DNA of 64,000 nucleotides from assembly GCF_907164915.1 (NCBI RefSeq), contig NC_061869.1:10961721-11025720 (forward strand), given 5' to 3'. Positions 31,803-53,827 of the stretch are shown here, in pieces. Each line of letters begins with the position of its first letter. The stretch's first letter is position 1. Source of the stretch: Impatiens glandulifera (lineage: Eukaryota > Streptophyta > Magnoliopsida > Ericales > Balsaminaceae). The notes beneath the pieces are model-generated. The model saw only the letters and a program-made list of their open reading frames with translations, made no database searches and had not been told where the DNA came from. The position numbers and the translations under genes were made by a program.

Positions 31803-31858
31803 GTTTGTTATTTGATTTATTACTTAATTCTTGATTTTTGTTTCACAATTTGTTTCTG

Positions 31859-31868
31859 CATTTTATAG
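31859..31868 (-). promoter_or_regulatory. TATA box of MMP2
   Basis: CTATAAAATG on the minus strand, 57 bp upstream of the ATG, conserved in all four MMP copies. Confidence 0.7.
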
Positions 31869-34615: not shown

Positions 34616-36899
34616 TTAAGAAGTTAACATATTGAACCGATATTATTTTTTTTGAATTTATGAAGTTAAATTGTCGAAACAATATGTTTTTTAATATATG
34701 AAGTTAACATGTTGAATCAATAATTATTTAATGAAAATAGAAATTTAAAAATAAATATCTTGACCCTTGAACTATCCTAATTGTTGTGTCAAACTAATAT
34801 TTTAATAAAATAAATAATATATATTAAAATTATTTTTAATATATATTCTTTCTTACAAACATATGAATTGAGATTGAATTAAAATTGTAAAGTTTTTCAA
34901 TCACGGTAATTGAATTATAATTCAATACCAATTCTTATGGAATTAAAATTAGAATTTCAATGTCAATTCTAATTTTAATTCTAATTTTACTCATCTAAAT
35001 GTATCATACTAGATTTGTTGTATCCTAAGAGACAACCATCTACGATAAGCTCCAGCATAAACGGAAAATGATAGAACTATTTAAAGGAAAATGTGTCTAA
35101 CACATGCCTTAGATTAAACTTATTCGGTGATTTCATTCTTCAGTATACATTTAGTTTATTTCATTTATTTGTATCATTGTATTTTTTTTATTTCTAGAAT
35201 TTAAAGAAAATAATAATAACAATCTTAAAACAGTTTTATGTGCTAAGTTATTTAGTAGATTGTGCCGTCGAAAATCTGTGTCTTTAATGTTTCACAAATA
35301 TGAGATGCGATGTTGCAAAAAGGATGATGTATGATTTTGAAAAGTTGAAATTATTCATTTTAATTAATGGAATAAACAACTAATAAAGATAAGTCTTTAT
35401 TATATACCTAAAGATTTAACTATTAACAATTTTTGTTTTTTGTGTTCTAAAAACTTATTTTTAGAAGTTAATATATGTTGATTTATATTAATTTTTTAAA
35501 TATTATATAAAAAATAAATTTAAACACAATAATTTGTTCCTTTTTTTATTAAAAATATTACTAAAATAATTATTATTAGTAAATAAAAATAAAAAAGTAA
35601 CTAAAAAGTTAAATTTTAATTTTTAAATAAAATAAGGGTTTTAATTTATTAATATTAATTATAGAGTGTATTGTCTCTTTGCAAGGATAGGTAGATGAGA
35701 AACAATTATTGTTTAAAATCAAACATGAAATTCTTGGAGGCGAAGATAGAAACAATTATTATAATTTATTTTATTTAATATTTAACCTATCAAATTATAT
35801 AATTTAAAATATTTAATTTATTAACTTATATATTAAATATAATTAATATATAAGGATATAATAGTGTTTTTTTTCATGTATTAATTTTAAATATTATTAA
35901 ATAAATTCAAATATCAAGTATTTAAAATTTAGATTTATATTTGATTAATTTAATTTTATCTCTATATATTTAATTATAAATATTTAAAATTCAGTATTCA
36001 TATTTTAACTTTAAGTTTTATCAGATTATTGTCTTAAGAGTACTGTCTCAAGCATTCTCACCTATTATTTAAAAAAAAAAATTATATCTTAAAGTATTAA
36101 AATAAATAATTTTTTTATTATTATTGTCGGCTTTACCTAGTGATATTCGTGAGTTGCTTCATTTCAGACTTTTCAACAAAACATGTTTCTAAAAAATTAT
36201 TGGTTTATTCGAAATAGGCTTGATTGAATGGTTAATCAGATACTATTATATTTTTTTCTTAAAAAATTAACAATAAATTTAGTAATATTTTTCTAATTTA
36301 TATACTAAATAGCATATCTAATTTATTATAGATTTTTTTTTTTGAGTATATACAAAAATTAGATATGATGTTTTAAAATAGTTACAAACAATTTATAAGT
36401 TATATAAAAGTATAAAACAATTTGATAAGCAATTATAAAAGAATGCACTTTTTTTTTTAATTAAGACAATATATATATTCTACATTAAACATTTAAAGAA
36501 TTTAATTAGAATTATTATACTCATTATCTTGAATGAGTGTTGAATTAAATAAATAGTTAGATTAAATATAATTTCAGTTTAATTGATTTTGAGATTAAAT
36601 TATTCTTTTTTAACATTCCAATTAAGGGTTATTTAGGCGTTGTATTGTCGATTATTCCCTCCAAGTTCTTTTTCCAAATTTCATCTTTCTATCATTTCCA
36701 TCCTTTAAATAATATCCAAAATTAGTCAATATTCAAATTTTCAAAATAAATCCTCAATTCAAATTTATTTATTATAAACAATGCTGATATATTATTTAAA
36801 ATATATATAAATATATATATAACAATCATATTTATTTATTTATTGATTGATTGATTTCAAGCAAAGTATTTTGCTCGAATAAAATTCAAGTAGATCGAA
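34239..36899. other. AT-rich intergenic DNA
   Basis: No gene was seen. A (TA)n tract lies at 34577-34611. From about 36190 the DNA is paralogous to the MMP2 3' flank beginning near 30130. Confidence 0.5.
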
Positions 36900-37733
36900 C
36901 TAACGAAAATTGTACAATGCCTTAATTGCGAGGATGTCATCACGATATAATTTTCTTTTGATAACCCCTAATTCTGAATATGGCCACATTACGGCAGAAG
37001 GAACATTAATATGCCTAAGACCAAGTATGTGTCCTAGCTCATGCACCGCAATTGTTTCAATGTCCATTTTATCACCACTTGCTGCGTTCGACCAAGGAAC
37101 GTCTGCCCTGAAATGGAGCTTTCCTTTAGGGGGAAGATCTGCGTAAGCCATTATTCCTGAGTGCCGTAGAAATGGCTCATAATCCTCACTAGGGAAACTA
37201 GTGAAACTTATTAGAATATCTGGCTTTCCATAACTTACCATAAAATTGAACCTCGTGACCCCTTGCCAACTGCCAAACGCATTATAAATTGCATTCATCG
37301 CATCTGATCGCGTTTCGGGTGCTACAGACCAGGATAGTAGGAGTTTCGACCACTTTCGTTCAGGATACCCATAGTACAATTCACTTTTAAAAGGGTCCCG
37401 AACTAACTTCACCCCGTAACAGTTTAGATGAAAAAATAGTTGAAATTTTTTAATTGCTTTTTCCATGGTGCGATCAAATGTATTAGAGTCGTTCGATGTG
37501 AAACTACTCGTTTGGTAACGGTCAATCTTAGAGGGACCAAAATAACCGTAATTGGAAAGATAATTTTTCACTTTATCGAGTTTCTTAATTTTGTCACCTC
37601 TCTTGGAACCCAATAAATGTTTCATAGACTTGAAAGATAATAATGAATTATCATTAAATTTTGATGTTTGGACAACTAAAAACAAGTCCAAGACAAAAAG
37701 TAACAAAAGAATGCATGTTTTGACCATATTCAT
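36900..37733 (-). CDS. MMP3, matrixin lacking the cysteine switch
   Basis: A 277-residue open frame with signal peptide (about 1-23), the first part of the propeptide (to residue 104), and a catalytic domain with HELGHILGLRH at 231-241 and a normal Met-turn. Residues equivalent to 105-135 of MMP1, including the whole PRCGFPD switch, are gone and replaced by two residues (CY). The DNA shows one inserted C followed by an ~88-bp deletion. Together these keep the frame, so the protein is open to the end. Without the switch cysteine the usual latency mechanism should be missing. It is either a constitutively active or misfolded variant, or an open-frame pseudogene. The structural-zinc region reads SED and AYA. 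Confidence 0.8.
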   Translation of the reverse strand: MNMVKTCILLLLFVLDLFLVVQTSKFNDNSLLSFKSMKHLLGSKRGDKIKKLDKVKNYLSNYGYFGPSKIDRYQTSSFTSNDSNTFDRTMEKAIKKFQLFFHLNCYGVKLVRDPFKSELYYGYPERKWSKLLLSWSVAPETRSDAMNAIYNAFGSWQGVTRFNFMVSYGKPDILISFTSFPSEDYEPFLRHSGIMAYADLPPKGKLHFRADVPWSNAASGDKMDIETIAVHELGHILGLRHINVPSAVMWPYSELGVIKRKLYRDDILAIKALYNFR

Positions 37734-37789
37734 GTTTGTGATTTGATTTGTTACTTAGTTCTTGATTTTTGTTTTACAATTTGTTTATG

Positions 37790-37799
37790 CATTTTATAG
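37790..37799 (-). promoter_or_regulatory. TATA box of MMP3
   Basis: CTATAAAATG on the minus strand, 57 bp upstream of the ATG. The outer Copia LTR begins about 460 bp further upstream. Confidence 0.7.
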
Positions 37800-38255
37800 A
37801 CATTTTTTTACATTTTTTTAGATCAAAAGATTGGGTTAATCTTATGTATAAATCTATTTGGTCGTAATATTATAAATTTTACTATTTTATCGATTATAAA
37901 ATAGTTAAAAGCTACTAAATATTATAGTAAATAAAAAAAAAATCTTTTAAAAAACATGTTAAATAATATTAGAACTGGATAATTAGTCAAGCATGTATAA
38001 AAAAAAACACAAATTCAACACAACATAATATTTGAGATTAATTGTGTTAAATCATATCTATGTATTTGAGGGTTAACATTATACATAAAAAGTTTCATTT
38101 TAATTAAAAAATAATAAAAATAAAAATTACAACAAATCATAAATTTCTGAAAAATAAAATCAAACAATAAAAGAGTGCCAACAAAGTGCATCAATAAAAC
38201 ATAAAAAAACAATTATAAATAAATTTGTTGATATTAAGTTAATTCCATTAATAAA

Positions 38256-38568
38256 TGTTAGAGTTTGTGGCCCGAATTCTTGTTGGGTCAGCGGGATTTA
38301 CCCGCGCTATATGGACCTGTAGTCTTAATGGGTCTGACTCCTTTTAATTTACATCATATTCTAGGGTTAGACAATATATAGACTATGCGGCCGTCTTTTC
38401 TCTCATTCAGTTCATTACGTTGTTCACCAAAATTTGTACAATCTTCGATATAGTGAAACTTCTCTTTTGCCCGTGGTTTTTTCACCCGTAAAGGGTTTTC
38501 CACATAATCTTGGTGTTCGTTCTTCTTTATCGCTTTTATCCTTGTTTATTGTGGTTTGGATTCTAACA
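38256..38568 (+). repeat. 5' LTR of the outer Copia element
   Basis: 313 bp, bounded by TGTTAGAG...TTCTAACA, placed directly before a tRNA-Met-type primer-binding site. A TATA-like ACAATATATAGAC lies near 38370. Confidence 0.85.
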
Positions 38569-38571
38569 AAT

Positions 38572-38583
38572 TGGTATCAGAGC
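38572..38583 (+). promoter_or_regulatory. Primer-binding site (initiator tRNA-Met)
   Basis: TGGTATCAGAGC, complementary to the 3' end of plant initiator tRNA-Met, three bases after the LTR. Confidence 0.9.
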
Positions 38584-38610
38584 CAAATTTGTTTGTTTTA
38601 TTTTTTGGTC

Positions 38611-40032
38611 ATGACCACGATGAAATACGATATTCCAATGCTGGATCGTAACACCAGATTTTCGTTATGGCAAGTGAAGATGCGAGCTATTTTGGCACAG
38701 ATGGATCTGGAAGATGCGCTATATGGCGCTGACAAGATGCCGTCTTCGTGGACTTATGAAGAAAAACAACGAGCGGATCGTAAGGCTCTATCGCAGATTT
38801 ATCTTCATCTATGGAATCAGATTCTTCAAGACTGTTTGAAGGAAAAAACAGTTGTTGCTCTCTGGCTAAGATTGGAGCAATTATGTATGACGAAAACGCT
38901 GACTAACAAGCTACACTTGACGCAACGCTTGTATTCCCAACGCATGTCTGACGGTACGTCTTTAGAAATTCACTTAACTGTTTTTAAAGAAATAGTCTCT
39001 GATTTGGAATCTATGGAGGTTAAGTACGATGAAGAAGATTTATGACTGATATTATTGTGTTCACTACCTCCTTCGTATGCTAATTTTAGAGATACCATTC
39101 TCTATAGTCGTGAGACTTTGACTTTGGATGAGGTTTATGATGCACTCTTCTCGAAAGAGAAGATGCATAAACTTGTTGGTTCAGATAACATGGCTGAAGG
39201 CCTTGTTGCACGAGGTAGACAGCAGGAGAGATATTCTAGCAGCAATAACCGTGGTAGGTCAAAATCCAAGAACAGGGATAAGACGTGTAGGTACTGCAAG
39301 AAGAAAGGCCATATTGTTGTTGAGTGTTATAAGTTATAGAATAAGAATAAGAGGGTTGGTGAGGATCAGAAGAGCAATCAACTAGAGAAATATGGCGAAG
39401 CTGATGTTGCTGAAAAGTACAATGATTGAGAACTTCCCATTACGTCTGATATTGATTCGAAATAGAGCGACGAATAGATTCTTGATTCTGGATGCACGTT
39501 TCATATGTGTCCTAATCGGGACTGGTTCTCTACATATGAAGTGGTCTCTAGAGGTACCGTTGTGATGGGAAATAATGCATCTTGCAGAATTGCTGGTATT
39601 GATACGATTAGAGTTAAGATGTTTGATGGCACTATTCGAACACTTGGTGATGTAAGGCATGTTCCTGACATGAAGAGAAATCTGATCTCATTGAGTATTC
39701 TTGATTCTAAAGGGTACAAATACACCGGTGAAGGTGGAGTTGTGAAGGTCAGCAAGGGGTCTCTTGTTGTGATGAAGGGACTTAGGAAAACTGCCAATTT
39801 ATATGTTCTGCAAGGCTCTCCGATTACAGGTGATGTTGCTGTTGCTAGTTCGTCTATGTCTGATTCCGATGTTACAAGATTATGGCACATGCGTCTAGGT
39901 CACATGAGTGAGAATGGCATGGTCGAACTGAACAAGAGAGGGCTTCTTGATGTGCAGGGTATTACGAAGATAAAGTTTTGTGAATACTGCGTTTTTGGTA
40001 AGCAGAAAAGAGTTAGGTTCTCGGCTGGTATT
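38611..40032 (+). pseudogene. Outer Copia gag-pol, 5' part
   Basis: One continuous frame starting MTTMKYDI covers gag (UBN2/DUF4219-like), a CX2CX4HX4C zinc knuckle (CRYCKKKGHIVVEC near 39290), protease ILDSGCTFHM (39478) and the GAG-pre-integrase histidine/cysteine finger (39880-40010). Five nonsense codons interrupt it: 39043 TGA, 39337 TAG, 39427 TGA, 39463 TAG and 39475 TAG. There are no frameshifts. The frame is cut at 40032 by the inner element and resumes at 53828. Confidence 0.9.
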
Positions 40033-41335
40033 TGTTAGGATCTAGGTCGCCGCTGGTGGACCGGGGGTTGGACCGGTTAGCGGTTCTCACTCGTAGGGTG
40101 GTGGTTAATCCGGTTAGAGATTAACACCGGGGTTTCAATACTACACAACCTGTCACAAACCCTTGAACTAGGTTCAAGCGCGGAAGAGGTTTGCTTTCAA
40201 GTTGAAGCGGTACACGTGTATGATAGGCGGAGTCGGTTTCGGATGATGGAGATTTGAAAAATGGTGGGTCGGTTTCGGTAATCTGGATGTTCGGTATGGT
40301 TAGTATAGATTCGGTTTGGAGCGGTATGGTTAAGTTAGTCGGTTATGTAATGAAGCCAACAGAAAGTAAATAACACAGAAGATTTTATGGATGTTCGGAG
40401 ATAAAACTCCTACGTCACCCCTTCCTCTCGAAACCGCGAGAAGGATATTCACTAAGGAATACAAGTACAATCCGATCGAGACTTATTTCCTGCTCGATAA
40501 TACTCTTACAATTCACACCGAAATTGTAACACACACTTAGACTTTCAGCACTTAGGCTTTCTAGAATAGTACACAGTTTATCACTTGTAGTAAATGCTGT
40601 TATCTCAATATATGTCTCTTGATATCCAATGTTTGTCCCGCATTTACTCTTCTGCAACTGCCTCCTTTTATAGGTGAAATATGCCAACGGTCATATTTCA
40701 CTGCCTTGAATCCGATTGGCTGATCAGAGGTGCAGTGATTCAGTGTCTCAGACCTGCCGGTCGTCTCCTCAGACCTGACGGTCAATCTCAGACCTGGTAT
40801 CCTGTTTCAGACCTGCCGGTCTGTAAGGCAAACCTGCTGGGTCTGTCTTTTACTCAATGTAGGCACTGTCTGTTTGGACAGTTGTCTGTACTTTGAAGAT
40901 TTCCTTTCTGGCTTATCCCGAAGTAGAAGGATTCGGTAGTACGGTTTTTCTGCAGCCTACAGTCTTTCCTCAGACTTGCATGGATATGGAAGTATTCAGT
41001 CTGTTCCTTTGGTATCATTCTCAATAGATACCCGAAATGTCTTCTTGTACTAGTCGGCCACTTGACTTGGCCGAATATCTTTTGGTAGTGAAGTAACCGG
41101 ACTTCTTCCGGTTATTCTTGTCTTGTGGATAATCGGCTGTTTGATGGATCTGGTTTTAAGCTTTGGCCGATCCTTTGTGCGGTCACGTTCAGAATGCTTT
41201 TGATCGGTATGGTGACTTGACCGATTCGGTTTCTTCAGTTGGTTTTCTTTTGTTCATCCGGTCCGGTTCCTTGTTCCTGCGTGGGAAGTTTGTTTAAGTT
41301 AGGTTTATTCGAACCGGTCTTGAATTTATCTAACA
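40033..41335 (-). repeat. 3' LTR of the inner Copia element
   Basis: 1303 bp, same length as the other LTR. On the minus strand it starts TGTTAGATAAATTC and ends GATCCTAACA. Core promoter TATA: minus-strand CTATAAAAGGAGGC near 40662-40675. U3 (right of that point) is nearly identical to the other LTR, while R/U5 (left of it) is clearly more diverged. Confidence 0.95.
40748..40821 (-). promoter_or_regulatory. Tandem U3 motifs, possible enhancer
   Basis: Four copies of TCAGACCTG(CCGGTC) (plus-strand reading) start at 40748, 40769, 40788 and 40807, so the spacing is 21, 19 and 19 bp. The same array is in the other LTR at 53235, 53256, 53275 and 53294. It lies about 75-150 bp upstream of the LTR TATA box in the element's orientation. 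Such arrays act as enhancers in some Copia elements such as Tnt1; that role here is inferred. Confidence 0.6.
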
Positions 41336-41539
41336 ATTTCTCCCTTTTTGATTATTTTATTTAAAATTATCAAAATCATGTAAGTTTGCAACCGTAGGCC
41401 GGTTGTTTTGTTTGGCCGGTTTTTGAAAAAAAGACTTAGAGAATTTTTCGAAAAATTTTGAGGGAGAAGTTTGGAAGAGTCTTTATCTTTTATCTAACAA
41501 TTTCTCCCTTTTTGATTATTTTATTTAAAATTATCAAAA
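41326..41539 (-). repeat. Duplicated polypurine-tract region
   Basis: A 50-bp perfect repeat occurs at 41326-41375 and 41490-41539. Each copy contains the last bases of the LTR edge (TTATCTAACA on the plus strand) and the polypurine tract (AAAAAGGGAGAAAT on the minus strand). Copy one forms the actual LTR boundary. Copy two lies 164 bp into the interior. Confidence 0.9.
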
Positions 41540-41659
41540 CTAAGTAGAAATGCAAAATAAGGCCGGATTAAAAATAACTTTATATATATATTTATAGGTG
41601 ACCGGTAAAGACAAAGCATATATAAATACTAAGGCAAACAGGAAAAAGAAGGATAGTCC

Positions 41660-44377
41660 CTATTCAGAGTCTGTGAATTCATAGGCACTCTTCTTTTTCT
41701 TCGGTTGCGGTTGCGGTTGCCTGGTCTGTTGGGAGGTTCGTTGTCTTTTAGATCGGGACCGCAGCTGTTCTTCGACTTCGTCCTCGACTTGGTCGTCTTG
41801 CTGCGAAGTACCCGTAGAGACCGGTTCGGAGATTTCATTGAGCATCTCGGCTATCCGAACTTTCTTAGGGGCCGGCCTCTTTCTTTTTGTCGGTGCTGAA
41901 GCGGAGGCGGCCGCCTTCTTCTTCTTCTCGTTTGCCTTTGCAAATTCGGTCAGGTTCCGTTTTTGCTCTTCCAATCGTGCGGCATCCTCCGCAGCCTGAC
42001 TGGCCACTTTTTCAGCATACCCTGGATATAAGATCTCGGCTCTTCTTATTCTTTCGGCTTCCAAATCTGCTTCGGTCAGTTGAGACGAACGCGGCGCCCC
42101 TTTATCTTTGCTAGCTTCGGCGTCCAGCGCATCCTGGACCCTTTTAGCCACTAGAGCATCAGCCTCTATAGCCGCGGCGTCCGCATTCTCCTTAGCTTTC
42201 AGAATTTCTGCCATCTGTGCGGTAAGTGCCTTTACTTCGGCCACGAGATCTTCGTTTTTCTTTTCCAGTACCGAGACCCGGTCGATTGTCGCGTCCACCC
42301 GTTCGAAATCCTTCTTTAAGTTTGAGGTCATAGCCTCCAGAGCTGCGGTTCGCTGAACACAATTTTCGCGCTCACCGGCCTCTTCCCACAGCCCGGTGCT
42401 GAGTTCTGCTAGGCGTGCTTGATGTTGATCCAGAAGCTGTTTTGTCACATCGGTGAACTGCAGGGCCGAATCAAATATGTTATTGCATCTATCCTTGAGC
42501 GGTTGAAACTTGGACACTTCGTGTACTTGTACGCGGTCATCGATCCGCTCTGAAATGGATGTTTCAAGCTGCTGAAGTCGGTCCTCAACCCGCTCCGAAA
42601 CTGCTGCTTCAAACTTTTGAAGTCGGTCATCAATCCATTCTTTAGGAGCCCATTCTTTAGTAGGATCCGAGGCGGTGACTTCCGGTGGTGAGGGAGGCGC
42701 GTGCTCGGTGGGGTCAGGATCGGCTCTTTCATCGAAATTTAACGGTACATCCTCTCCATTTGGAGGTTCTAATTGTGCCGCATCCTCTAAGTTCGGCACC
42801 TCAACTTCCAGGTTTGGAACCGCATCTTCTAAGTTTGGAACCTCAACTCCCAAAGTCGGTATCGGTTCCTCATCTTCCAATATTGGTTCCTCAACTTCCC
42901 TTGAAGGTGTTTGACAGTTGACTGGAAATTCTTCGATTACCGGAGCAGTATAGACCGGTACTTGCTTTTGATTGCATATTGCTTCCAGCCGCTCTATTTC
43001 TTGACGTATTTCCATTTTGCCTTTTTCAAGCTTTGTTAATACTCGCGGCGCTACGGTACACACCGATCCCCCCTCGGCATACTCTTCCTTAATTTTCCTG
43101 ATGCGCCTTCTTAGTTTCCGAAGATGGCTTCTCGGTATCAGGAGACAAGTTCGGCATTGTACCTCCTGAATTGTGTTGGATTTTGTGAGGCGGAAGATCA
43201 TGTCCTCTACCTCCTCCAATCTGTCGATGCAATCCTGTTGCGGGAAAGCCGGTAGGATGTCTTTATATTTTGTGTTGAAGCGGTGCTCATGCCACTCCAA
43301 ATATAGGTCTATAACGTCCTCGTCTCGCTTGTTTATGCCCTGAAAGATGTTCTGGGCTAATCTTTCGGCCTCGGCCTCGTCGGCTTCTTCCTTGTCGTGG
43401 CCTTCATCATTGGCTCCTGTATCATCCCCCTCGGTGGTTTCAGGGTTAGCGCTTTGTTCGGCATCGTTCGGACTCCGAGCCGAATGATCGTCGTCATGGA
43501 CCGTTCCATCTTCGGTCCTCTCCGGGTCGGTTTCCTCAGGGGCCCACTCCTCATCCTCTGTTTGTTGTGGTGGGTTTACGAAAGTTATCTTTTCTTTCTT
43601 CTTCCCTCCGGTCTTTGCTTTTGCCGGGGCATCTTTCTTTGCGGCTTTCTTCTTTCGGCCACCTGTGGAACTGGAGGCCGACTGCGTTCTTGGAAGGAAT
43701 TGCCTCGATCTAATGAGGCAACGTTTTAATAGCTCAACACCGGGACCGACGTTGAGGTTCAAGTGGAGGAAGATCTTGCCGAGTTGCACGGCATATCCCC
43801 ACGACCGGGTTGAATCCGGTTTCACCATGTCCATGAGGTTACCGAACACTGATCTTGTCCAGTTGACCTCTTTTCCTTCCAACAGACCGATAATCATTTT
43901 GATTTTGTCCTTGGTGAGATTGCTGAAGTTTCCTCCCCTTGCCAGTATCGCCCTGGCGAAAACGTCACACGCCGGGATATATTCCGGTTTCAGCATTTGT
44001 TTACTTCCGGATGTGGTGATCGGCTCATTGGTTGCCGATAAGGCGTGGCAAGCCGTCTCAAAGATATCATCGTCTATTTCTGCCGTTGCATCCTGGCCGG
44101 TAGTTGGGAGATGCAAGCTCTCGGCCACCAATGCTTCGGTGATCTCGATTTGGGAGCCGCAAACCGTTGCGATGATTCTGTCGTAGGAGATGATTGCGGT
44201 TTTGAAGAATTCTTCGACCGCCTCTTTGTAAATTACGTGAGGACCGTCTAGGAAATATCCCAGACCGGTTGTGATCAGCAGGTCAATAACTTCCTTTGCT
44301 TCGGTTGTCCCATTCTGCCGAATCTCCTCGAAGTCTACTTGAGAATAGAGTTTGAACAACGCCGAATCACGACCCAT
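41660..44377 (-). CDS. Extra gene A of the inner Copia element, 905-residue nuclear-type protein
   Basis: Function unknown. Residues 1-230 share a domain with extra genes B and C: VDF near 14, TGLGYFLDG near 37-45, EEFFKTA near 55-61, a GSK box near 124-126, and VNW near 171-173. I think this resembles the plant-transposon-associated domain Pfam calls Transposase_32, but that needs a profile search. A lysine-rich stretch (about 241-263) follows, then an acidic region, a tandem VPNLE-type repeat (about 500-530), long predicted coiled coils (about 570-780, with a repeated ERVEDRLQ/ERIDDRVQ unit), and a basic C-terminus with KRKRP and PKKKK, likely nuclear-localisation signals. No membrane segment or zinc knuckle was seen. 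The frame is uninterrupted. A TATA box precedes it by about 105 bp. Confidence 0.8.
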   Translation of the reverse strand: MGRDSALFKLYSQVDFEEIRQNGTTEAKEVIDLLITTGLGYFLDGPHVIYKEAVEEFFKTAIISYDRIIATVCGSQIEITEALVAESLHLPTTGQDATAEIDDDIFETACHALSATNEPITTSGSKQMLKPEYIPACDVFARAILARGGNFSNLTKDKIKMIIGLLEGKEVNWTRSVFGNLMDMVKPDSTRSWGYAVQLGKIFLHLNLNVGPGVELLKRCLIRSRQFLPRTQSASSSTGGRKKKAAKKDAPAKAKTGGKKKEKITFVNPPQQTEDEEWAPEETDPERTEDGTVHDDDHSARSPNDAEQSANPETTEGDDTGANDEGHDKEEADEAEAERLAQNIFQGINKRDEDVIDLYLEWHEHRFNTKYKDILPAFPQQDCIDRLEEVEDMIFRLTKSNTIQEVQCRTCLLIPRSHLRKLRRRIRKIKEEYAEGGSVCTVAPRVLTKLEKGKMEIRQEIERLEAICNQKQVPVYTAPVIEEFPVNCQTPSREVEEPILEDEEPIPTLGVEVPNLEDAVPNLEVEVPNLEDAAQLEPPNGEDVPLNFDERADPDPTEHAPPSPPEVTASDPTKEWAPKEWIDDRLQKFEAAVSERVEDRLQQLETSISERIDDRVQVHEVSKFQPLKDRCNNIFDSALQFTDVTKQLLDQHQARLAELSTGLWEEAGERENCVQRTAALEAMTSNLKKDFERVDATIDRVSVLEKKNEDLVAEVKALTAQMAEILKAKENADAAAIEADALVAKRVQDALDAEASKDKGAPRSSQLTEADLEAERIRRAEILYPGYAEKVASQAAEDAARLEEQKRNLTEFAKANEKKKKAAASASAPTKRKRPAPKKVRIAEMLNEISEPVSTGTSQQDDQVEDEVEEQLRSRSKRQRTSQQTRQPQPQPKKKKSAYEFTDSE

Positions 44378-44480
44378 GTTAAGAGTTTGAGAATGAGAGA
44401 AATCGGCTTCAGAAAGTTTAGGAAGCTTAGAGAGAGAAAGTGAATTCGCGTGAGAATGAAAAATATGACCGAAGGCCCCC

Positions 44481-44487
44481 TTTTATA
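44481..44487 (-). promoter_or_regulatory. TATA box of extra gene A
   Basis: The minus strand reads GCCTATAAAAGGGGGCC across 44474-44490. It is followed by a CT-rich leader of about 75-80 bp and the ATG at 44377. The core is very like the element's own LTR promoter (CTATAAAAGGAGGC). Upstream DNA contains GGAGGGAAA motifs (about 44536 and 44610) that recur, inverted, upstream of extra gene B. Confidence 0.65.
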
Positions 44488-44886
44488 GGCACGGTTTGGA
44501 AGCCCAACCGTCCCATCATTAATGGGCGGGAGTTTTCCCTCCAAAATGAAAGGACGCTTAAGCTATGGGCGGTTAAGTGTGAAAAGGTGGGCGGTAACTT
44601 TGAGCGGGAGATTTCCCTCCAAAACCATTTGCCTATGTCATGGATGACGCATTTTACTTTGAGACCGAATGTATGATCGGTTTCTAAGTCTAATCAGACA
44701 TTTTGATTAACAGTTTTAATCAGATTTTATGAAACCGGATAAGAACGAGGTTATTTTCGGTTACTTGGATAAATACGCAAGGGGTAAAGAGAAGCGGTCA
44801 TTGAAACTGAAACGATATTTTATTCAAGAGACCGACACTAAAGAGTACATAAAAAAAACTGATAGAATGATACGAAAGATAATCAT

Positions 44887-45594
44887 TTAAGCAGTAAGCA
44901 CCATTCTGGAATACTTTTCCACCACCGCATCTGCATCAAGAATGTTTGAGGGGGATGCCGGCGTGCCCGGTTCAAAATCTGGCCGGTACTTGAGAATCAA
45001 CTTGCTGATGTGAGGTGCAAAGCCGAGACCTTTCTTGGTCAGCACCATATTCCTCAAGTTTTGAAAGAGGACCGCTGACCAATTGATGGGCGTTTGGTGG
45101 TAGATGTGGGTCATGATGTTGTAGGTATTCTTTGAATACCGCTGATTTGGAGATTGGCACAGAATGGACCGAGTGACAATCTCAAGAAGTAGCTGAGTAC
45201 TACGACCGAGGCGGGTTTTTAACCCATGGGTTTCCACCGGATCAAGGGTTGCAGAGCAGCGTAACCCATAGTAGTATTCATCAAGTCCCTCCATGGTTGG
45301 GAAATCAGAGAACCCTTCTTTGGGCAGATTGAAGAGGGTGGCAAATTCGGCTTCATCAAGCCGGAAGGTATGATTCCTTACAGTGGTGACAATGCAATCG
45401 CCCCAGTTGCAGGCATTTCTGAAGAATTCCTTGACATCCTCAATCAGTATGGGACCGGATTCTTCGAGGAAGGTTTGAAGACCGGTAACAATAAGGCTTT
45501 CAAACATGTGTTTCTTTGCATGGTCATAGTCCCATTCTGCCATACATGAGTTGAAATCGACACTTAGGAAATTTCCCAAAGATCGGCTCGGCAT
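44887..45594 (-). CDS. Extra gene B of the inner Copia element
   Basis: 235 residues, function unknown. The start MPSRSLGNF is preferred over an upstream in-frame ATG at 45726, because a TATA box lies between them at 45690-45696 and the region after it looks like a leader. It shares the domain of extra genes A and C in the same order: VDF, TGLQTFLEES, EFFRNA, FATLFNLPKEG, HGLKTRL, PINWSAVLFQNL and GFAPHISKLIL. Unlike A it ends soon after the domain, with no basic or coiled-coil extension. The frame is intact. Probably duplicated from the same ancestor as A and C; whether it is made as protein is unknown. Confidence 0.75.
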   Translation of the reverse strand: MPSRSLGNFLSVDFNSCMAEWDYDHAKKHMFESLIVTGLQTFLEESGPILIEDVKEFFRNACNWGDCIVTTVRNHTFRLDEAEFATLFNLPKEGFSDFPTMEGLDEYYYGLRCSATLDPVETHGLKTRLGRSTQLLLEIVTRSILCQSPNQRYSKNTYNIMTHIYHQTPINWSAVLFQNLRNMVLTKKGLGFAPHISKLILKYRPDFEPGTPASPSNILDADAVVEKYSRMVLTA

Positions 45595-45689
45595 GATTAT
45601 AGTGTTGAGAGAGAGATTCAAGAGAAGTTTAAGATGAATACAAGTGTTTTGTACTTTTGGATGTGATAAAATGAGAGGAGGATGGCTCC

Positions 45690-45696
45690 TTATATA
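45690..45696 (-). promoter_or_regulatory. TATA box of extra gene B
   Basis: The minus strand reads CCTATATAAGGAGCC, about 100 bp before the ATG at 45594, followed by a CT-rich leader (CTCTCTCTCAACACT just before the ATG). It parallels the core promoter of extra gene A and of the LTR. Confidence 0.65.
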
Positions 45697-46107
45697 GGAT
45701 CGGTTTTGGAGGGAAAATCTGTGCATTGATGGTCAGTTTTGTTTTATTAAGGAAGAGAATCTTTCCCTTTTCAAGATGCATGGGGAAGCGGCAGATTGCA
45801 AGGCTCGAGGTAAGTATTTGTTGGAGAGTAACTGGATTAGTTGGAAATTAAATGTGCGGGTGGTTGGGAGTTATCTCATTAATTGGGATTATCTTATTAA
45901 ATGCATTTAACACATAACCGATATTGATTAGATAGAAACCGAAAATGGTATAGATAATGCCGGAAATGACATACATAAATGATGAAGTCAAGAAAAGCAC
46001 AAATAAAACCGAAGGAGACATGGATGAAGCCGATATGATCAAATTTGAGTTGGTTAATGATACATCCGGTACATGCTGCAAAACGACCGGATGTAAGAAG
46101 GAGTGAC

Positions 46108-46863
46108 TTAGCGAGCGCGGGAATTAGCATCACGAGGGGAGTTGAAGTTTCTCCTCCTCCATTCTCTTTCAAACCGATCGTAGAATGAGTCGATGACTTC
46201 TCTGGTGAACACCTGACCATGGTTCAAACCTTCGCCGGGACAGGTTGGAACTCCAAGTTCCTCAAAAAGTCGACTTATCTAGGGAACAAAGGCCACTGAC
46301 CGGGTGCCGATTATCCAAATAAGGACGTCAAACAGTACCCTAGACCAGTTGACCGGCGTCCTGGTGATGATGGCCGCCATCATGTTGAAAGCCGCCACGC
46401 AGTAGGTGTTGGTGACATCTTTTCCAAAGATGCCCCTTCCTATTATGTCATTGAGGAGCTGATACTCAGCCCTCAAGAGAGATTTAGAGCCATGATCATC
46501 AACAGGCTCGTCCGACCGGGCAAGGGAGAGAGAGACCTCAGCCTTAATATCGGCTGGAGGGTTTAGGTCTGTTAGCCCTTGTTTGGGCAAATCGAAGCAC
46601 CGAGCGAAGTCCTGCTCGGTGAAGTCAAAGAGAATACCCCCAACCTTTGATTGGATGTGGGTATCGAAGTGGGGTGTTCCCCGGTATACCCTGGCGTTGT
46701 AGTAAAATTCCAACACTGATTCAGGGTAGATTGTTTGCCTGGCATCCAGAAAATGCTGGAGGCCGGTATCTTCCAGTTGTTTGATCATCCGATACACCTC
46801 ATAATGATCGGTATCGGAGCAAGATTCAAAGTCGACTTGGAGAATGTTTGGGAAGAGAGACAT
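46108..46863 (-). pseudogene. Extra gene C of the inner Copia element, interrupted by one TAG
   Basis: The first 194 codons carry the shared domain (VDF, TGLQHFLDA, EFYYNA, FARCFDLPKQG, GSKSLLRAEY, PVNWSRVLF) and stop at a TAG at 46279-46281, exactly where A and B continue. The same frame then stays open for 57 more codons to a TAA at 46108-46110. That part reads ISRLFEELG... and is rich in arginine near its end, so the original product was about 251 residues. One point mutation or read-through would account for this. A TATA-like box lies about 65 bp before the ATG. Confidence 0.7.
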
Positions 46864-46924
46864 TTTTGCCTTAGTGATAGAGATAGTATTTTGTTTGTGA
46901 GTGTTTTGGTGAGTGAGTGCTTCC

Positions 46925-46932
46925 TTTAAATA
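46925..46932 (-). promoter_or_regulatory. TATA-like box of extra gene C
   Basis: The minus strand reads AGTATTTAAAGGAAGC, followed by a leader rich in CACTCAC and AACAAA up to the ATG at 46863. It is the weakest of the three internal promoters, but the spacing and leader composition are alike. Confidence 0.5.
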
Positions 46933-46935
46933 CTG

Positions 46936-47377
46936 GTTTTGGGGCTAACCTATTGTCCGGGCATTAAATGAGATGATATGTATTAACCGCAAGATAAGAG
47001 TCTTTGCATAAAATAGGCAGTTTTGCAGGTTTAGGTGTCGGTCATAGGCCTGGACTGTGAAAGATATCAAAAGATCTTCACGTCTTTTTAGGCGCGACCA
47101 GGTTTACTCTGAAAAGGCAATGATGCAGAACAGATACCTTTAACCTCTGATAACTATTCCTCTTCTGTTTGAAATTCAAATAATCTGGGGTAGCGTGCTT
47201 CCGAGCCGGTCAGACATCAGTTGTTCATCCCGATGCGGTTATTTGGTGCATGCACCAAGTAGCCGGTCGGTTTACTTTCTCTGATAGACTGGGCGGTTCT
47301 TCCGCAAACACTCCGAAGATTCAAAGTTCAACTTCTTAGGAAGAATTATCGATTTGTCTGTCTGAACCGATTTCCCT
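46936..47377. other. Spacer between pol and extra gene C
   Basis: No open frame of interest was seen. It separates the end of pol (47378) from the promoter of extra gene C. Confidence 0.5.
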
Positions 47378-50300
47378 TTAATTATCCTTTGGAAGGATTT
47401 GGCTAATGTCGGTTAAGCCGAGAGTAAGTCTAAATTGAGAAAACTTAGCTTCCTGCAGCGGCTTCGTGAAGATATCGGCTACTTGTTGATCGGTCGGTAC
47501 GTATTCCAGCCGGATATGCTTCAGCGTGACATGCTCTCGGATGAAATGATGCCTTATGTCGATGTGCTTGGTTCTGGAGTGGAGAACCGGGTTGTAGGTA
47601 ATCGCAATGGCACTTGTGTTGTCACAGAAGATCGGGGACTCTTCGGCTATGATACCGAAGTCCTTCAGCTGCTGTTGAATCCAGAGGAGTTGGGAACAGC
47701 AACTTCCGGCCGCCAAGTATTCAGCCTCCGCAGTTGATGTAGCCACCGATGTCTGTTTCTTGCTGTGCCATGATACCAGTCGGTCACCTAGGAACTGACA
47801 TGTTCCACTGGTGCTTTTCCTGTCGATCTTGCATCCTGCATAGTCTGCGTCTGAATAGCTTGTCAGATTAAAAGATGAGTCTTTTAGGTACCACAGACCG
47901 ACATCAGGAGTGCCTTTTAGATACTTCAGTATCCTCTTTGCAGCTGTGTAATGGGATTGCTTTGGATTTGCTTGGAATCTCCCACACACACCAACTGCAA
48001 ACAGGATGTCCGGTCTACTTGCTGTCAGGTACAGCAGGGAACCGATCATGCCTCGGTATGCAATCTGATCTACCGATTGACCTTCATCATCTCTATCCAA
48101 TTTAACGGATGAGCTCATTGGAGTGGCCGCTGAGGAGCATGTGTCCATACCGAATTTCTTTAGCAGCTCCTTGGTATATTTAGGTTGACTGATGAATGTT
48201 CCTTCCTTGAGTTGTTTAACCTGAAGACCTAGGAAGAAACTTAATTCTCCCATCATACTCATTTCAAATTTGTCAGTCATCATATTTGAGAACTTGTCAC
48301 AGAGCTTTGGATCGATGGAACCGAAAATAATATCATCTACATAAATTTGAACAAGTAGGATATGTTCCTTCTTTTCAAACTTAAACAAGGTTTTATCCAC
48401 CGAACCGATGGTGAAATCATGCTCTAATAAAAATGCGGTTAGCGTATCATACCAGGCCCTAGGTGCTTGCTTTAGACCATATAAAGCTTTGTTCAGCCGG
48501 TATACATGGTTTGGAAATGCAGCATTTTTGAAACCGGGTGGCTGTTCAACGTACACTTCTTCACGTATATCACCGTTCAGAAATGCACTTTTAACATCCA
48601 TTTGAAAAACTTTGAAATTTTTGAAAGCAACAAATGCAAGAAAAATCCTAATGGCTTCAATCCTGGCTACAGGAGCAAATGACTCTTCAAAGTCAATGCC
48701 TTCTTCCTGTTTGTAACCTTGAGCCACTAATCTGGCTTTGTTCCTCGTGACCAAACCGTCCTCATTGAGTTTGTTTCTGAATACCCATCTTGTTCCTATG
48801 ACCGATTGATCTTTCGGTCTGGGAACTAAGTACCAGACTTTACTACTCTCGAACTGGTTTAGCTCTTCTTGCATTCCCAAGATCCAATCCGGATCTGACA
48901 ATGCTTCATCTATTCTTTTCGGTTCAATCTGGGATATAAAAGCAGAGTTAAAATATCCTTCCAGAAGTTGACTCCTAGTTCGAACAGGTTCTGAAGGGTC
49001 ACCTATAATTTTCTCAGGAGGATGTTTACTATTTCTTCTGAGATTCAGTTCAGGAGTGTCTACCAGATTACCGGTAACTTGACCAAGGCTAGACATGTCG
49101 GTAGGTTGACCGAGATTGTCAGACCGACCGACTTCCTCGGATTGGACCGAAGTGTCAGCTTCCTGTTGTGAGACAGCTTGATCCGGCTGGGTATCAATAT
49201 TACCCATTAGCTCATGGACAAACCGCCTGAAGACCGGAGTCTCATCTTCACTGTCAGAATGAATATCATTATTTTCCAATCTGTTGTGTAGATCAAAGCA
49301 TGAAGCAGTGTTGCTTTCAACCGATTCATCGAAAACAACGTGAATTGTTTCCTCCATGGTTGCAGTTCTATTATTGTATACTCTATATGCTTTACTTACT
49401 GCCGAGTATCCAAGCATGATGCCGGTATCGGTCTTTGCATCAAAAGCGGTGAGTTGGGTTTTACCATTTATATGAATATAACATTTACAACCGAAAATCC
49501 TGAGGTACTTGAGTTTAGGAACTCTGTTAAAATAAACCTCATACGGTGTTTTGTTGTGAAATCTGTTTATTAAAGACCGGTTTTGTGTATGGCATGCAGT
49601 GTTGATAGCCTCAGCCCAAAATTTCTGAGCAATGCCGGAGTCGGCTATCATGGACCGTGCGGCTTCCTTGAGAGTCCGGTTTCTTCTCTCGGCCAGGCCA
49701 TTTTGTTGAGGAGTCCTAGCACTAGACAACTCGTGTCGAATGCCGGATTCATCAAGATATGCAGTTAATGTACTATTAGTAAATTCGGTACCTCGATCAC
49801 TTCGAATGCTATTGATACGAGTTGATTTTTCATTTTGCAACCGCTTAAGAAGTGTGATCAGGTTTGATACAGTTTCACGTTTAGATGGTAGAAATATCAC
49901 CCATGTATATCTAGAATAATCATCAATAACTACCATGGTGTAAAGCATGCCTCCTAGGCTAATGACCTGAATCGGTCCAAATAAATCCATGTGAAGAAGA
50001 TCTAGACACCGGCTAGATTGAATATTTCCTTTACTCTTAAAAGATGACCTAGTTTGTTTACCCATCTGGCATGCTGAACAAACCTTATCCTGGTTAAATA
50101 CTATATCAGGAATACCTTCAACTAGCTTTTTGCCACGAATGTAGTTTAAAGTTTTCATGTTTAGATGGTTTAGTCTCTTGTGCCATAGCCAGGTTTGATC
50201 AGTCTTAGCTATCATGCATATAGGATGTTCTACTCTTGTTTTCCAGTCTACCTTATAAATGTTACCTATCCTATTTCCGGTTAGCAATACAATACCTTGA

Positions 50301-50653
50301 GAGTCCTTAACTAAGCATGCATGTTTAAGGAATTCTACCGTGTATCCGGCGTCACACATCTGACTAATACTAAGTAGATTAAAACGTAGGTTTTCAACTA
50401 GAAGTACATTATCAATAGTTAGGTTTCCATGGACAATCTTACCCTTGCCCACAGTTTTACCCTTTGAGTTGTCACCGAAGGTAATTAGAGCACCGGTTAC
50501 TGATCTGATGTCGATTAGCAGATTGCTGTTTCCGGTCATGTGCTTGGAGCAACCGCTGTCCAAGAACCATTCGGAGTTTCCTAGCCGTTTCTTTGGATCC
50601 TGCAAAATGTACATATTTACAACTGTTTGGTACCCACATTTACTTGGGTCCAC
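47378..50653 (-). CDS. pol: Inner Copia pol (protease, integrase, RT, RNase H)
   Basis: 1091 codons open to the stop. Domains: aspartic protease DSG at 32-34; GAG-pre-integrase zinc finger H158, H163, C192, C195; integrase catalytic triad D223, D286, E322; reverse transcriptase with YVDD at 771-774; RNase H (about 930-1070) with AEAEYLA. The open frame begins at a GTG and has no natural ATG, because in Copia it is the continuation of gag. The ~120 codons linking it to gag (51017-50654) are open in another frame, so two compensating 1-bp indels break what was one gag-pol frame. Its catalytic residues are all present, so the enzyme itself looks recent. Confidence 0.93.
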
Positions 50654-51013
50654 ATGCGATTAGTCCCTTAGGTATCCAAACCTTGATGAACCGGACAGTT
50701 TTCTTTGCTAGGGTTTTAACTGTCCTTTTGGCACTCGGTCTCGTGTATTTCGGTTTTCCTTCAGATGACCTAAATGGAGATGGTCTTTGATTCGGTGATC
50801 TATAGTTTGACCTACGTGGCTCAGGAAAATCTTTCTTATATTTGAGGATTTCTGCTTTCCTTTTCTCAAGGTCAAGCCATGAATCGGTTGGGCCAACATA
50901 ATCGTATTTTAGCTTCTCTTCCCTATAATATGCGGTTTCCTCTTCTTCGGCTGTCCAGGTGCTCTTAAGGAATTTTATAAAGGGGAGGTTTCCTTTTGTA
51001 AGCCTGGCTTTCT
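50654..51013 (-). pseudogene. gag-pol linker in shifted frame
   Basis: The minus strand is open from 51017 to a TAA near 50647 in the frame one base behind gag. It reads IEKARLTKGN at its start and [11 protein letters not shown] at its end, which continues gag and leads into pol. Gag and pol are in the same frame as each other. So a base is missing near 51017 and one is added near 50650. Programmed frameshifting is less likely, since two opposite shifts would be needed. Confidence 0.8.
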
Positions 51014-52480
51014 CTATGGGTTTTCGGTCTTTGGAGCTATTCCTGTGTATCCTAGACCACGCTTACAACGAGGATGCCTATAGTGTTTATTCATATCCTT
51101 TACTATATCGCTAGATCTCTTATAGGCGGCCATCGTATATTGAAATCGGGCATTTTCTTCCTCGGTTAGTTCTCTAGTCGGTTCACTAGGTTGTTCGATT
51201 TTAAGATCTAACTCGGTTTCTAGAGTGTGGGTATCATCAGGTTGTATAACTTCCGGTTCGGTGATGATAGGTACCTCTGGTTCTATGGGAATAGGTACTG
51301 TGGGATCGGGCTTGATGTTGAGATGTTTAGGTAGCATGGTCAGTAGGTTCTTATATTCTTCTACCATGTCATTCAATGCTTCATATAACTCATCTTTAGT
51401 AAATTCATCATAGGGAGAGTCAAATACCTGTTCCTCATTGGCCATGAGGCACGTGAGTTCATCGTCGCTGTCACTGCGAGCCCACAAACTTCCTCCATCG
51501 TCGGCTATCAGTGCTTTCGGTACCTCACTTCCCTCACCGGCTTGTTGATAATTGTTTCTGTCATTCTGATAGTCCGGTTTCTGGGTATCCCTCCTTGGTT
51601 TCCTGCATTCCCACTTAAAGTGTCCCATACAGTTACAGTTATAGCATCTTACATTGGATTTGTCACCATAGTAGTTGTTTGTCGGTTGGCTCCTTTTCAT
51701 GAACCTCCCAAACTTCTGTGCAAGCATTGCCATGGCGTCCTCTGTAAACTGTTCGGCTGTTCTGATAGGTGCAGGTGCAGGAGCCGGTATCGGTGTAGGT
51801 GTAGGTACAGGAGCAGGTACAGTCGGTTCTGTAGATGTGATTAGTGCTCTGGTTGATGTTGAGGCTGAGACTTCCTCTTCGGTTCTAGATTTCATTTCGA
51901 ACTCGTATGCCTTGAGATCTTCGAATACATCGTATAGTTTCATCTTACGTAGGCTCTTTGATTCCCTCATTACCATTGTCTTTATATCCCAGGCACTTGG
52001 AAGAGATCTCAAAGCCTTCATAACTACCTCTTTGTTCTCATACTTCTTGCCCAGAGTAGCTAGCTCATCTAACACACCAGTGAACCGGTCACTGTATTCC
52101 TTCATAGTTTCTCCCGGTTTCATTTTGATGCTTTCAAACTTCTGTGTGGCCATCATTATTTTGTTCTCCCTTGTTCTTTCATTTCCTTCAAAGATCTGGA
52201 TGACCGTGTTCCATGTCTCCTTCGCAGTTTTGCAATCTCTGATCTTGCAGTATGTGTTTCTGTCTACGCTGTTGGAGATCCGGTTTCTTGCATGGTTATC
52301 CAGATTGTTCCTTCTCCTATCATCAGCCGTCCATTCTTTTCTGTCTTTATCAATGACTATCGGTCCTTCGGTTAGAACGGATTCCATTTCATCATCCAAG
52401 GTGACTAGATGCAGGTGCATGCGTGCCTTCCAGTTAGCAAAGTCACAGCCTTCTAGCATTGGAGGCCTATCCTGATACAT
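51014..52480 (-). CDS. gag: Inner Copia gag
   Basis: 488 residues. An N-terminal UBN2-type gag domain (about 1-215) is followed by a proline/alanine/threonine-rich linker (about 230-265), a CX2CX4HX4C zinc knuckle (CYNCNCMGHFKWEC, about 283-296) and an acidic tail. The ATG is 26 bases from the primer-binding site. It forms the capsid that packages element RNA in the cytoplasm. The stop at 51014 is a consequence of the frame change described for the linker. Confidence 0.92.
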   Translation of the reverse strand: MYQDRPPMLEGCDFANWKARMHLHLVTLDDEMESVLTEGPIVIDKDRKEWTADDRRRNNLDNHARNRISNSVDRNTYCKIRDCKTAKETWNTVIQIFEGNERTRENKIMMATQKFESIKMKPGETMKEYSDRFTGVLDELATLGKKYENKEVVMKALRSLPSAWDIKTMVMRESKSLRKMKLYDVFEDLKAYEFEMKSRTEEEVSASTSTRALITSTEPTVPAPVPTPTPIPAPAPAPIRTAEQFTEDAMAMLAQKFGRFMKRSQPTNNYYGDKSNVRCYNCNCMGHFKWECRKPRRDTQKPDYQNDRNNYQQAGEGSEVPKALIADDGGSLWARSDSDDELTCLMANEEQVFDSPYDEFTKDELYEALNDMVEEYKNLLTMLPKHLNIKPDPTVPIPIEPEVPIITEPEVIQPDDTHTLETELDLKIEQPSEPTRELTEEENARFQYTMAAYKRSSDIVKDMNKHYRHPRCKRGLGYTGIAPKTENP

Positions 52481-52505
52481 GTTTGCTTGAGTATTGAAAC
52501 TAACT

Positions 52506-52517
52506 GCTCTGATACCA
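52506..52517 (-). promoter_or_regulatory. Primer-binding site of the inner Copia element
   Basis: The minus strand reads TGGTATCAGAGC, the initiator tRNA-Met complement, directly beside the 5' LTR. Confidence 0.92.
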
Positions 52518-52519
52518 AT

Positions 52520-53822
52520 TGTTAGGATCTAGGTCGTCGCTGGTGGACCGGGGGTTGGACCGGTTAGCGGTTCTCACTCGTAGGGTGGTGGTTAATCCGG
52601 TTAGAGATTAACACCGGGGTTTCAATACTACACAACCTGTCACAAACCCTTGAACTAGGTTCAAGCGCGGAAGAGGTTTGCTTTCAGGTTGAAGCGGTAC
52701 ACTTGTATGATAGGCACGGTCGGTTTCGGATGATGAAGATTTGGAGATGGTGGGTCGGTTTTGGCAATCTGGATATTCGGTATGGTTAGTATAGATTCGG
52801 TTTGGAGCGGTATGGTTAAGTTAGTCGGTTATGTAATGAAGCCAACAGAAAGTAAATAACACAAGGTTTTATGGATGTTCGGAGATAAAACTCCTACGTC
52901 ACCCCTTACTCTCGAAACCGCGAGAAGGATATTCACTAAGGAATACAAGTACAATCCGATCGAGACTTATTTCCTGCTCGATAATACTCTTACAATTCAC
53001 ACCGAAATTGTAACACACACTTAGAATTTAGCACTTAGGCTTTCTTGGAATAACACAGTTTTATCACTTGTAGTAAATGCTCTCAACGCTTCACTTGATG
53101 TCTCTTAATGTCCCAATATTTGTCCCGCATTTACTCTTCTGCAACTGCCTCCTTTTATAGGTGAACTATGCCAACGGTCATATTTCACTGCCTTGAATCC
53201 GATTGGCTGATCAGAGGTGCAGTGATTCAGTGTCTCAGACCTGCCGGTCGTCTCCTCAGACCTGACGGTCAATCTCAGACCTGGTATCCTGTTTCAGACC
53301 TGCCGGTCTGTAAGGCAAACCTGCTGGGTTTGTCTTTTACTCAATGTAGGCACTGTCTGTTTGGACAGTTGTCTGTACTTTGAAGATTTCCTTTCTGGCT
53401 TATCCCGAAGTAGAAGGATTCGGTAGTACGGTTTTTCTGCAGCCTACAGTCTTTCCTCAGACTTGCATGGATATGGAAGTATTCAGTCTGTTCCTTTGGT
53501 ATCATTCTCAATAGATACCCGAAATGTCTTCTTGTACTAGTCGGCCACTTGACTTGGCCGAATATCTTTTGGTAGTGAAGTAACCGGACTTCTTCCGGTT
53601 ATTCTTGTCTTGTGGATAATCGGCTGTTTGATGGATCTGGTTTTAAGCTTTGGCCGATCCTTTGTGCGGTCACGTTCAGAATGCTTTTGATCGGTATGGT
53701 GACTTGACCGATTCGGTTTCTTCAGTTGGTTTTCTTTTGTTCATCCGGTCCGGTTCCTTGTTCCTGCGTGGGAAGTTTGTTTAAGTTAGGTTTATTCGAA
53801 CCGGTCTTGAATTTATCTAACA
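52520..53822 (-). repeat. 5' LTR of the inner Copia element
   Basis: 1303 bp, partner of 40033-41335. U3 (about 53150-53822) shows about one difference from the partner, whereas R/U5 (52520-53150) shows about twenty substitutions and short indels. Confidence 0.95.
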
Positions 53823-53827
53823 GTATT

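Follow-up and report, generated by a model that had tools for sequence, protein, structure and literature searches.

A tandem array of three paralogues in the 3′ part of a SIRE-type Copia retrotransposon from Impatiens glandulifera

Between pol and the 3′ LTR of an abundant SIRE-type Copia LTR retrotransposon of Impatiens glandulifera lie three tandem paralogous genes in the order C-B-A, which on balance we read as an old accessory module under purifying selection, probably expressed as three internal transcription units, and not as an envelope gene. Their products are probably not retroviral-type envelope proteins, and what sets the element apart is that paralogues stand in tandem, each of them with a promoter-like site. 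The initial annotation of the window (the whole 64,000-nucleotide stretch analysed) had placed three paralogues, one of them greatly extended, in the env-like slot of such an element, and this is confirmed for the copy studied here, the extended member being A.

Structure of the element and its three genes

The element occupies positions 40033–53822 on the minus strand with the TSD AATAC, and its LTRs differ by 27 substitutions over 1298 aligned bases (K2P 0.021). Its features, by position in the window, are:

40028–40032, TSD AATAC on the 3′ side, read from the sequence
40033–41335, minus, 3′ LTR (TGTTAG...CTAACA), from the blastn LTR pair and boundary reading
41325–41402, minus, PPT/att box, terminal copy at the 3′ LTR
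41489–41566, minus, PPT/att box, upstream copy (AAAAAGGGAGAAATTGTTAGAT)
41660–44377, minus, gene A, ORF of 905 aa
44478–44487, minus, TATA-type box TATAAAAGGG before gene A, motif match
44887–45594, minus, gene B, ORF of 235 aa
45687–45696, minus, TATA-type box TATATAAGGA before gene B, motif match
46279–46863, minus, gene C, ORF of 194 codons then TAG, with 56 more in-frame codons at 46111–46278
46923–46932, minus, TATA-type box TATTTAAAGG before gene C, motif match
47378–50653, minus, pol ORF, 1091 aa, from ORF and Pfam, integrase ahead of RVT_2
51014–52480, minus, gag ORF, 488 aa, Retrotran_gag_2, from ORF and Pfam
52506–52517, minus, primer binding site TGGTATCAGAGC, read from the sequence
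52520–53822, minus, 5′ LTR, from the blastn LTR pair and boundary reading
53823–53827, TSD AATAC on the 5′ side, read from the sequence

The primer binding site is one that we take to be of the tRNA-Met type. The domain order of pol is that of Copia, rve (residues 218–315) preceding RVT_2 (605–847) by Pfam, and across the 360 nt between gag and pol there is no single open frame with either ORF. The Sirevirus (SIRE) lineage and the balsam element have in common the Copia class and an ORF in sense orientation that follows pol ahead of the 3′ LTR (env-like, or eORF-3′F), and the likeness extends to more than one PPT box near the 3′ LTR (two boxes AAAAAGGGAGAAATTGTTAGAT, at 41509 and 41345), an AT/TG attachment site after the terminal box, and a polyC-rich stretch near the LTR end (CAACCCCCGGTCC at 52554 and 40067). 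The octamer here is AGGGAGAA, however, compared to the published AGGGGGAG, and the two copies compare to a Sirevirus mean of four, both in the available part of the description (PMC2829016).

Genes A and B have the 905 and 235 codons first given for them, whereas C, put at about 251 codons, is broken at 194 in this copy; intact 251-codon copies of C are present elsewhere in the family. Gene A is laid out as a PF20167-like N-terminal domain (residues 1–240), a charged linker with basic clusters (none were found in B or C), a heptad-rich stretch at about 671–736, and a basic tail. It holds 86 heptad-like windows against 26.6 in shuffled sequences, a level reached in 1 of 100 shuffles. Hydropathy maxima (KD19) are 1.13 for A, 1.04 for B and 1.73 for C, and the predicted structure of B is weak (mean pLDDT 50) and mostly helical. 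PDB sequence searches gave chance-level matches or none, and profile, protein and PDB searches found no homologue of known function for A, B or C.

Family membership, recurrence and selection

All three products are divergent PF20167 (Transposase_32) proteins, this being the sole Pfam family with support for them and the one suggested at the outset. The profile matches 8 of 8 array members (best 6.4e-14), so PF20167 is the right family; the window's copy scores 12.9 (A), 28.9 (B) and 35.2 bits (C), all below the curated cut-off of 45 bits, and 43 of 150 scored genome matches lie above it. The eight PF20167 loci that we fetched (L001–L008) are A-type genes of divergent subfamilies. Homology of the products, also claimed from the start, is borne out by comparison of the A, B and C sequences, which rules out a chance resemblance, and by a tree of 27 rows in which each gene is monophyletic across subfamilies (support 100/100 for A, 99/96 for B and 99/98 for C), and the triplication is therefore older than the subfamilies. 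Profile searches found only two proteins, both from Impatiens glandulifera and both A-type, a protein search with B alone gave no match at 0.001 among 199 candidates, and IMG/VR scans gave no matches.

The order C-B-A is kept in 30 of 30 close loci, the window's own copy (L009) included, which together with the many genomic matches to B and C rules out a single-copy oddity. B is followed by A in all eight loci found through PF20167, and upstream DNA fetched for five of these has pol and C in front in every case, with identities to the window's copy of 67–87% for the main pol pieces, 54–61% for C, 43–47% for B and 42–48% for A. The same layout was found in other copies, a check that the initial annotation had set, though not in all: of the divergent copies whose upstream DNA was examined, eight in total, five had pol-C-B-A whole and three only part of the array, namely A and B with a domain fragment (L052), A with a fragment (L053), and A alone in the part of the stretch examined (L051). 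All three genes are kept in two clades of subfamilies.

Within the family, dN/dS is 0.174 for the A domain (28 copies), 0.229 for B (30) and 0.124 for C (29), compared to 0.035 for pol, which from only 3 copies appears under far stronger constraint than the accessory genes. Among the 150 best-scored matches for each gene, 149 for B and 139 for C are free of stops, counts that include the window's own copy and are biased to intact copies. Of the 6 long loci, 2 have a shortened A, and stops occur in several divergent copies.

TATA-type sites and the ACCG motif

A TATA-type match lies at −125 to −60 of the ATG in all 116 extracted upstream stretches (C 37/37, B 40/40, A 39/39), whereas shuffled sequences gave one in 9.4%, 4.9% and 1.4% of cases on average, respectively. 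Only for B of L007, the sole such case of the 116, was a looser six-base pattern needed; divergent subfamilies have other TATA variants, and such sites precede A and B in the incomplete L052 too. The 10-mer is conserved in close copies but not uniquely so, ranking 12, 38 and 35 of 171 windows. Shortly downstream of B, AATAAA occurs in 28 of 28 main-clade stretches, but none of 3 divergent copies tested has it.

The tetramer ACCG occurs 251 times in the element, coding DNA included, against 69.4 expected (3.6-fold, rank 1 of 120 tetramers), and it also shows the largest tetramer excess in 10 of 10 further loci with an A gene that were tested (parts of 8 copies; ratio 2.7–5.7). Background was taken from window DNA, flanking Copia, three 7 kb stretches at round coordinates, and L054, a nested MULE-like region (the family name coming from ORF reading) without the pol of the L052 family. 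No ACCG excess was found in flanking Copia, other window DNA or the MULE region, though one 711-nt piece of the flanking Copia has 8 sites against 2.8. Over all coding parts there are 150 sites compared to 81.5 in synonymous-codon shuffles (z 10.3), the excess being clear in gag (z 3.8), pol (6.5) and A (6.1); in B it is weak (2.4), and in C it does not reach significance (1.7). Density stays high even as individual sites turn over; no repeat arrays of ACCG were seen, and spacing showed no clear preferred distance, the overlap ACCGGT excepted.

Known systems and the possible role of the module

The initial annotation knew of no described system of this kind, a view that needs narrowing: SIRE elements commonly have an additional sense ORF on the 3′ side, which is present in 74% of them (PMC6317226). 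What we did not find in the literature on SIRE elements, whose extra 3′ ORFs are known, is a tandem paralogous set with conserved promoters. According to PMC2829016, Peterson-Burch and Voytas put forward an internal promoter for Sirevirus env-like genes in 2002, and by 2010 the matter had not been settled conclusively. Compared to those genes, the balsam set is a tandem of three paralogues; not one of them is joined to pol, and a TATA-type site precedes all three at a similar distance. A PF20167-like stretch (partial similarity) is also found in the extra ORF(+) of sunflower Athila 14, but that element is of the Ty3/gypsy lineage and the portion of its description at hand names one such ORF (PMC11728184). 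Grande is likewise reported to have a 3′-region accessory gene with its own promoter and a nuclear protein (Gomez-Orte 2013), though it is a single gene and, according to a review (PMC7264820), antisense.

In the reading we favour, each of C, B and A would be transcribed from its own internal promoter, and the products may be soluble nuclear or nucleocytoplasmic factors acting for the element, most likely by keeping it expressed against host silencing. A, with its length, coiled-coil-like stretch and basic tail, might serve in oligomerisation or be directed to chromatin, with B and C as domain-only partners or competitors. A tentative extension, rather unlikely in our view, is self-recognition, in which three paralogues from three internal promoters would read the ACCG (best RACCGR) filling the element, so that copies stay expressible.

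VANDAL elements are DNA transposons. VANDAL21 encodes an accessory protein family, VANC, and is itself rich in a short motif (PMC5735166, PMC10398659, available parts), and by analogy A, B and C might bind the dense ACCG and open the element's own chromatin, a sequence-specific anti-silencing that we regard as rather unlikely. In that precedent the target TE alone has the motif at high density (PMC5735166), and ACCG, judged against few background stretches, is similarly dense in the element and not elsewhere, exceeds the synonymous-codon shuffles, and keeps its density despite turnover. However, the VANC motifs are mainly in non-coding, often tandem repeats in what is available of that study, whereas ACCG is dense in coding DNA also and was not seen in arrays. 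Its excess is weak or not significant in B and C, the flanking 711-nt piece is rich in it, no relation to VANC was seen among the Pfam matches, and the excess may have a mutational or methylation-linked cause.

Slot and orientation are as in Sirevirus ENV, and the products could accordingly be diverged env-like proteins in the SIRE1 sense, aiding movement or particle release and produced from the genomic RNA either through splicing or by reading through a stop codon; SIRE1 ENV is made by stop codon suppression, and splice sites are predicted in BAGY2 and Athila (PMC2829016, in part). We find this unlikely: 514 nt separate the pol stop from the start of C, compared to the single stop codon that joins env to pol in SIRE1, a TATA-type site precedes the extracted gene starts instead, and the hydropathy maxima indicate no clear membrane segment. 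Equally improbable in our view is a role in the virus-like particle, which the products would help in its structure or by binding RNA (in assembly, or as an RNA chaperone), A being a coiled-coil scaffold. The mostly helical, weak model, the heptads and basic clusters of A, and the chaperone role proposed for ENV-like proteins (PMC7264820, part of the review) are consistent with it, but Pfam gives no RNA-binding domain in the accessory proteins, and with promoters of their own the genes would no longer be tied to gag in dosage. Finally, the broken C of this copy, the short A genes, and the stops and missing parts in divergent copies might suggest passengers of a past duplication, hitch-hiking and decaying. 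This is very improbable, as dN/dS of 0.12–0.23 disfavours such decay, the best-scored B and C matches are largely stop-free, even if biased to intact copies, and the three genes are kept in both clades.

Every element of this one family offers three gene starts, and the TATA-type site before them keeps a similar distance across diverged subfamilies, so that the question of the internal promoter becomes answerable. Self-recognition, if true, would give a function to the env-like genes of Sireviruses and also to the CGG...CCG boxes that are known to accompany these genes, and a selected, triplicated module together with an element-wide motif suggests a testable role other than infection for env-like genes.

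The element and its setting

The SIRE-type Copia retrotransposon was delimited from its LTR pair and a reading of its boundaries, and its primer site was read from the sequence.

40033-53822, minus strand: LTR element (13.8 kb) with both ends present
within the element, minus strand: primer site TGGTATCAGAGC

The LTRs are 1303 bp each, begin with TGTTAG, end with CTAACA and are flanked on both sides by AATAC. Aligned over 1298 bases, the two show 27 substitutions (K2P 0.021); assuming 1.3e-8 substitutions per site per year, the element would be less than a million years old. Both gag (488 aa) and pol (1091 aa) are recognisable, with 360 nt between them belonging to neither ORF, and in pol the integrase precedes the reverse transcriptase. 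There are two PPT boxes with an AT/TG attachment site, and a polyC stretch lies near the LTR end; compared with the Sirevirus signs in the accessible part of PMC2829016, the boxes, attachment site and polyC agree, though the PPT octamer is unlike. The element is nested in a second Copia, with gag on the left (38434-40027) and integrase on the right (53828 to about 57000). Elsewhere in the window, duplicated blocks at 30178-32272 and 36252-38212, spaced about 5.9-6.1 kb, are 86-95% identical, the second containing an ORF with HELGH (36900-37733) that we take to be matrix-metalloproteinase-like.

Three related genes and their recurrence

Three genes follow pol in the order C, B, A, preceded by gaps of 514, 684 and 509 nt respectively, the second of which counts in the 56 in-frame codons beyond the stop of C. 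The initial annotation had described them as paralogues, and sequence comparison leaves no doubt that the N-terminal domains of A, B and C are related. All eight array members tested match the PF20167 profile, so the domains are assigned to this group, the window's own A, B and C scoring under the curated cut-off. The length of about 251 codons given earlier for C holds for intact copies found elsewhere, but not for the window copy, in which an in-frame TAG follows codon 194. Beyond its domain A carries a charged linker, basic clusters and a heptad-rich stretch; of six long loci, four have an A of 905-929 aa and two a short one. The predicted structure of B (mean pLDDT 50) allows no statement about its fold beyond helices and a short hairpin. 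Two annotated Impatiens proteins (P0001 and P0002, one of them 'bfr2-like') resemble pieces of gene A, so the host annotation contains element genes.

The array recurs: around B matches the same C-B-A order is seen in 30 of 30 loci (L009-L038, L009 being the window). Scores cover only the top 150 of some 18,000 first-look candidates, hence the best copies and not a random sample, with the window's own included. The 150 matches to B are 86-100% identical and 149 lack a stop; the 150 to C are 85-100% identical and 139 lack one. In the loci found through PF20167 (L001-L008) B is followed by A in 8/8, at 42-52% identity, and the upstream DNA of five of these has pol and C in front every time. Compared with the window, the main pol pieces of these five are 67-87% identical, two short pol pieces 45 and 50%, and C 54-61%; several of these divergent copies contain stops. 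Three further copies were picked from long open frames, with the full array seen in none: L052 has A (a 971-aa frame), B and an upstream domain fragment, L053 has A and a domain fragment, and L051 has A (a 1037-aa frame), with neither B nor C found in the part of the stretch examined. One of three 7-kb genome stretches at round coordinates holds an A-type gene (L056:5876-6574), which hints at a high copy number for this element type.

In the literature searched, PF20167 appears by accession in one paper, for a sunflower Athila ORF (PMC11728184, in its accessible part). The searches, which took in neither subscription papers nor supplements, turned up no Copia element with a set of paralogues in tandem; absence is not proven.

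Age, selection and candidate transcription units

A maximum-likelihood tree was built from 27 domains; stops are written as X in 11 of its rows, and the program flagged two branches as long. In it A, B and C each form one clade (100/100, 99/96 and 99/98), and the triplication is thus older than the subfamily split. Nei-Gojobori dN/dS in the close family, from ungapped full-length copies only, is 0.174 for the A domain (28 copies), 0.229 for B (30) and 0.124 for C (29, after removal of 6 saturated pairs out of 406). Constraint is weaker on the linker (0.30) and the tail (0.34) of A, each from 4 copies, and the end of pol gives 0.035 from only three copies. Across subfamilies, divergence is much greater in the extra genes than in pol. 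Pairwise distances of B and C are uncorrelated (r = -0.02; 24 copies, from the window and loci L011-L043), and this suggests recombination between copies, with the genes exchanged as modules and mosaic copies as the result.

A TATA-type match lies at -125 to -60 of the start codon in every upstream stretch extracted (C 37/37, B 40/40, A 39/39), where shuffling gives on average 9.4, 4.9 and 1.4% (200 rounds); these stretches are kin to one another and hence not independent, and matches starting after query residue 6 and four duplicate loci were left out. For B of L007, one of the PF20167 loci, the match is by a looser six-base pattern only. The divergent subfamilies, however, carry different TATA variants about as far from the start codon, in surroundings that otherwise align poorly, and L052 too has a TATA-type site before A and before B. 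A caution is that in close copies conservation of the TATA 10-mer ranks only 12, 38 and 35 of 171 windows. AATAAA follows B in 28 of 28 main-clade stretches, the window included, and in none of three divergent ones.

ACCG excess and possible function

Counted with its complement, ACCG is present 251 times in the element where dinucleotide frequencies predict 69.4, ranking first of 120 tetramers, with RACCGR as the best extended form. Flanking Copia DNA gives ratios of 1.02 and 1.26, a MULE-like region 0.88 and other window DNA 0.71-1.01. Pooled coding parts contain 150 sites against 81.5 in synonymous-codon shuffles (z 10.3, rank 1 of 136), with z of 3.8 for gag, 6.5 for pol, 1.7 for C, 2.4 for B and 6.1 for A. 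In all ten related loci tested (L001, L002, L006, L040, L044, L046, L047, L051, L052, L053), which are parts of eight copies and hold either an A-type gene or the neighbours upstream of one, the ratio is 2.7-5.7. For the round-coordinate stretches the ratio is 2.47 with the A-type gene, 0.87 with another Copia, and 2.41 with a host-like gene and other DNA, where 22 of 33 sites fall in the last 2 kb, in unassigned DNA. A 711-nt piece of flanking Copia has 8 sites against 2.8, which leaves room for a weak effect beyond the family. Sharing of sites between subfamilies is barely above that of other tetramers (43-47% versus 37-41%), while density remains high. Sireviruses have CGG...CCG boxes in their LTRs and before env; unlike the excess seen here, a density across coding DNA goes unmentioned for them in the accessible part of PMC2829016. 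A comparison was also made with VANC, the anti-silencing protein of VANDAL transposons, in which a short motif is dense, from the accessible parts of PMC5735166 and PMC10398659.

The genes occupy what had been called an envelope-like slot, yet an Env-type function is less likely, as none of the products shows a clear membrane segment by hydropathy and none of the genes is linked to pol. Most likely the three PF20167 genes are an old accessory module under selection, probably with three internal transcription units, and we infer, as the preferred function, that their products act in regulation for the element.
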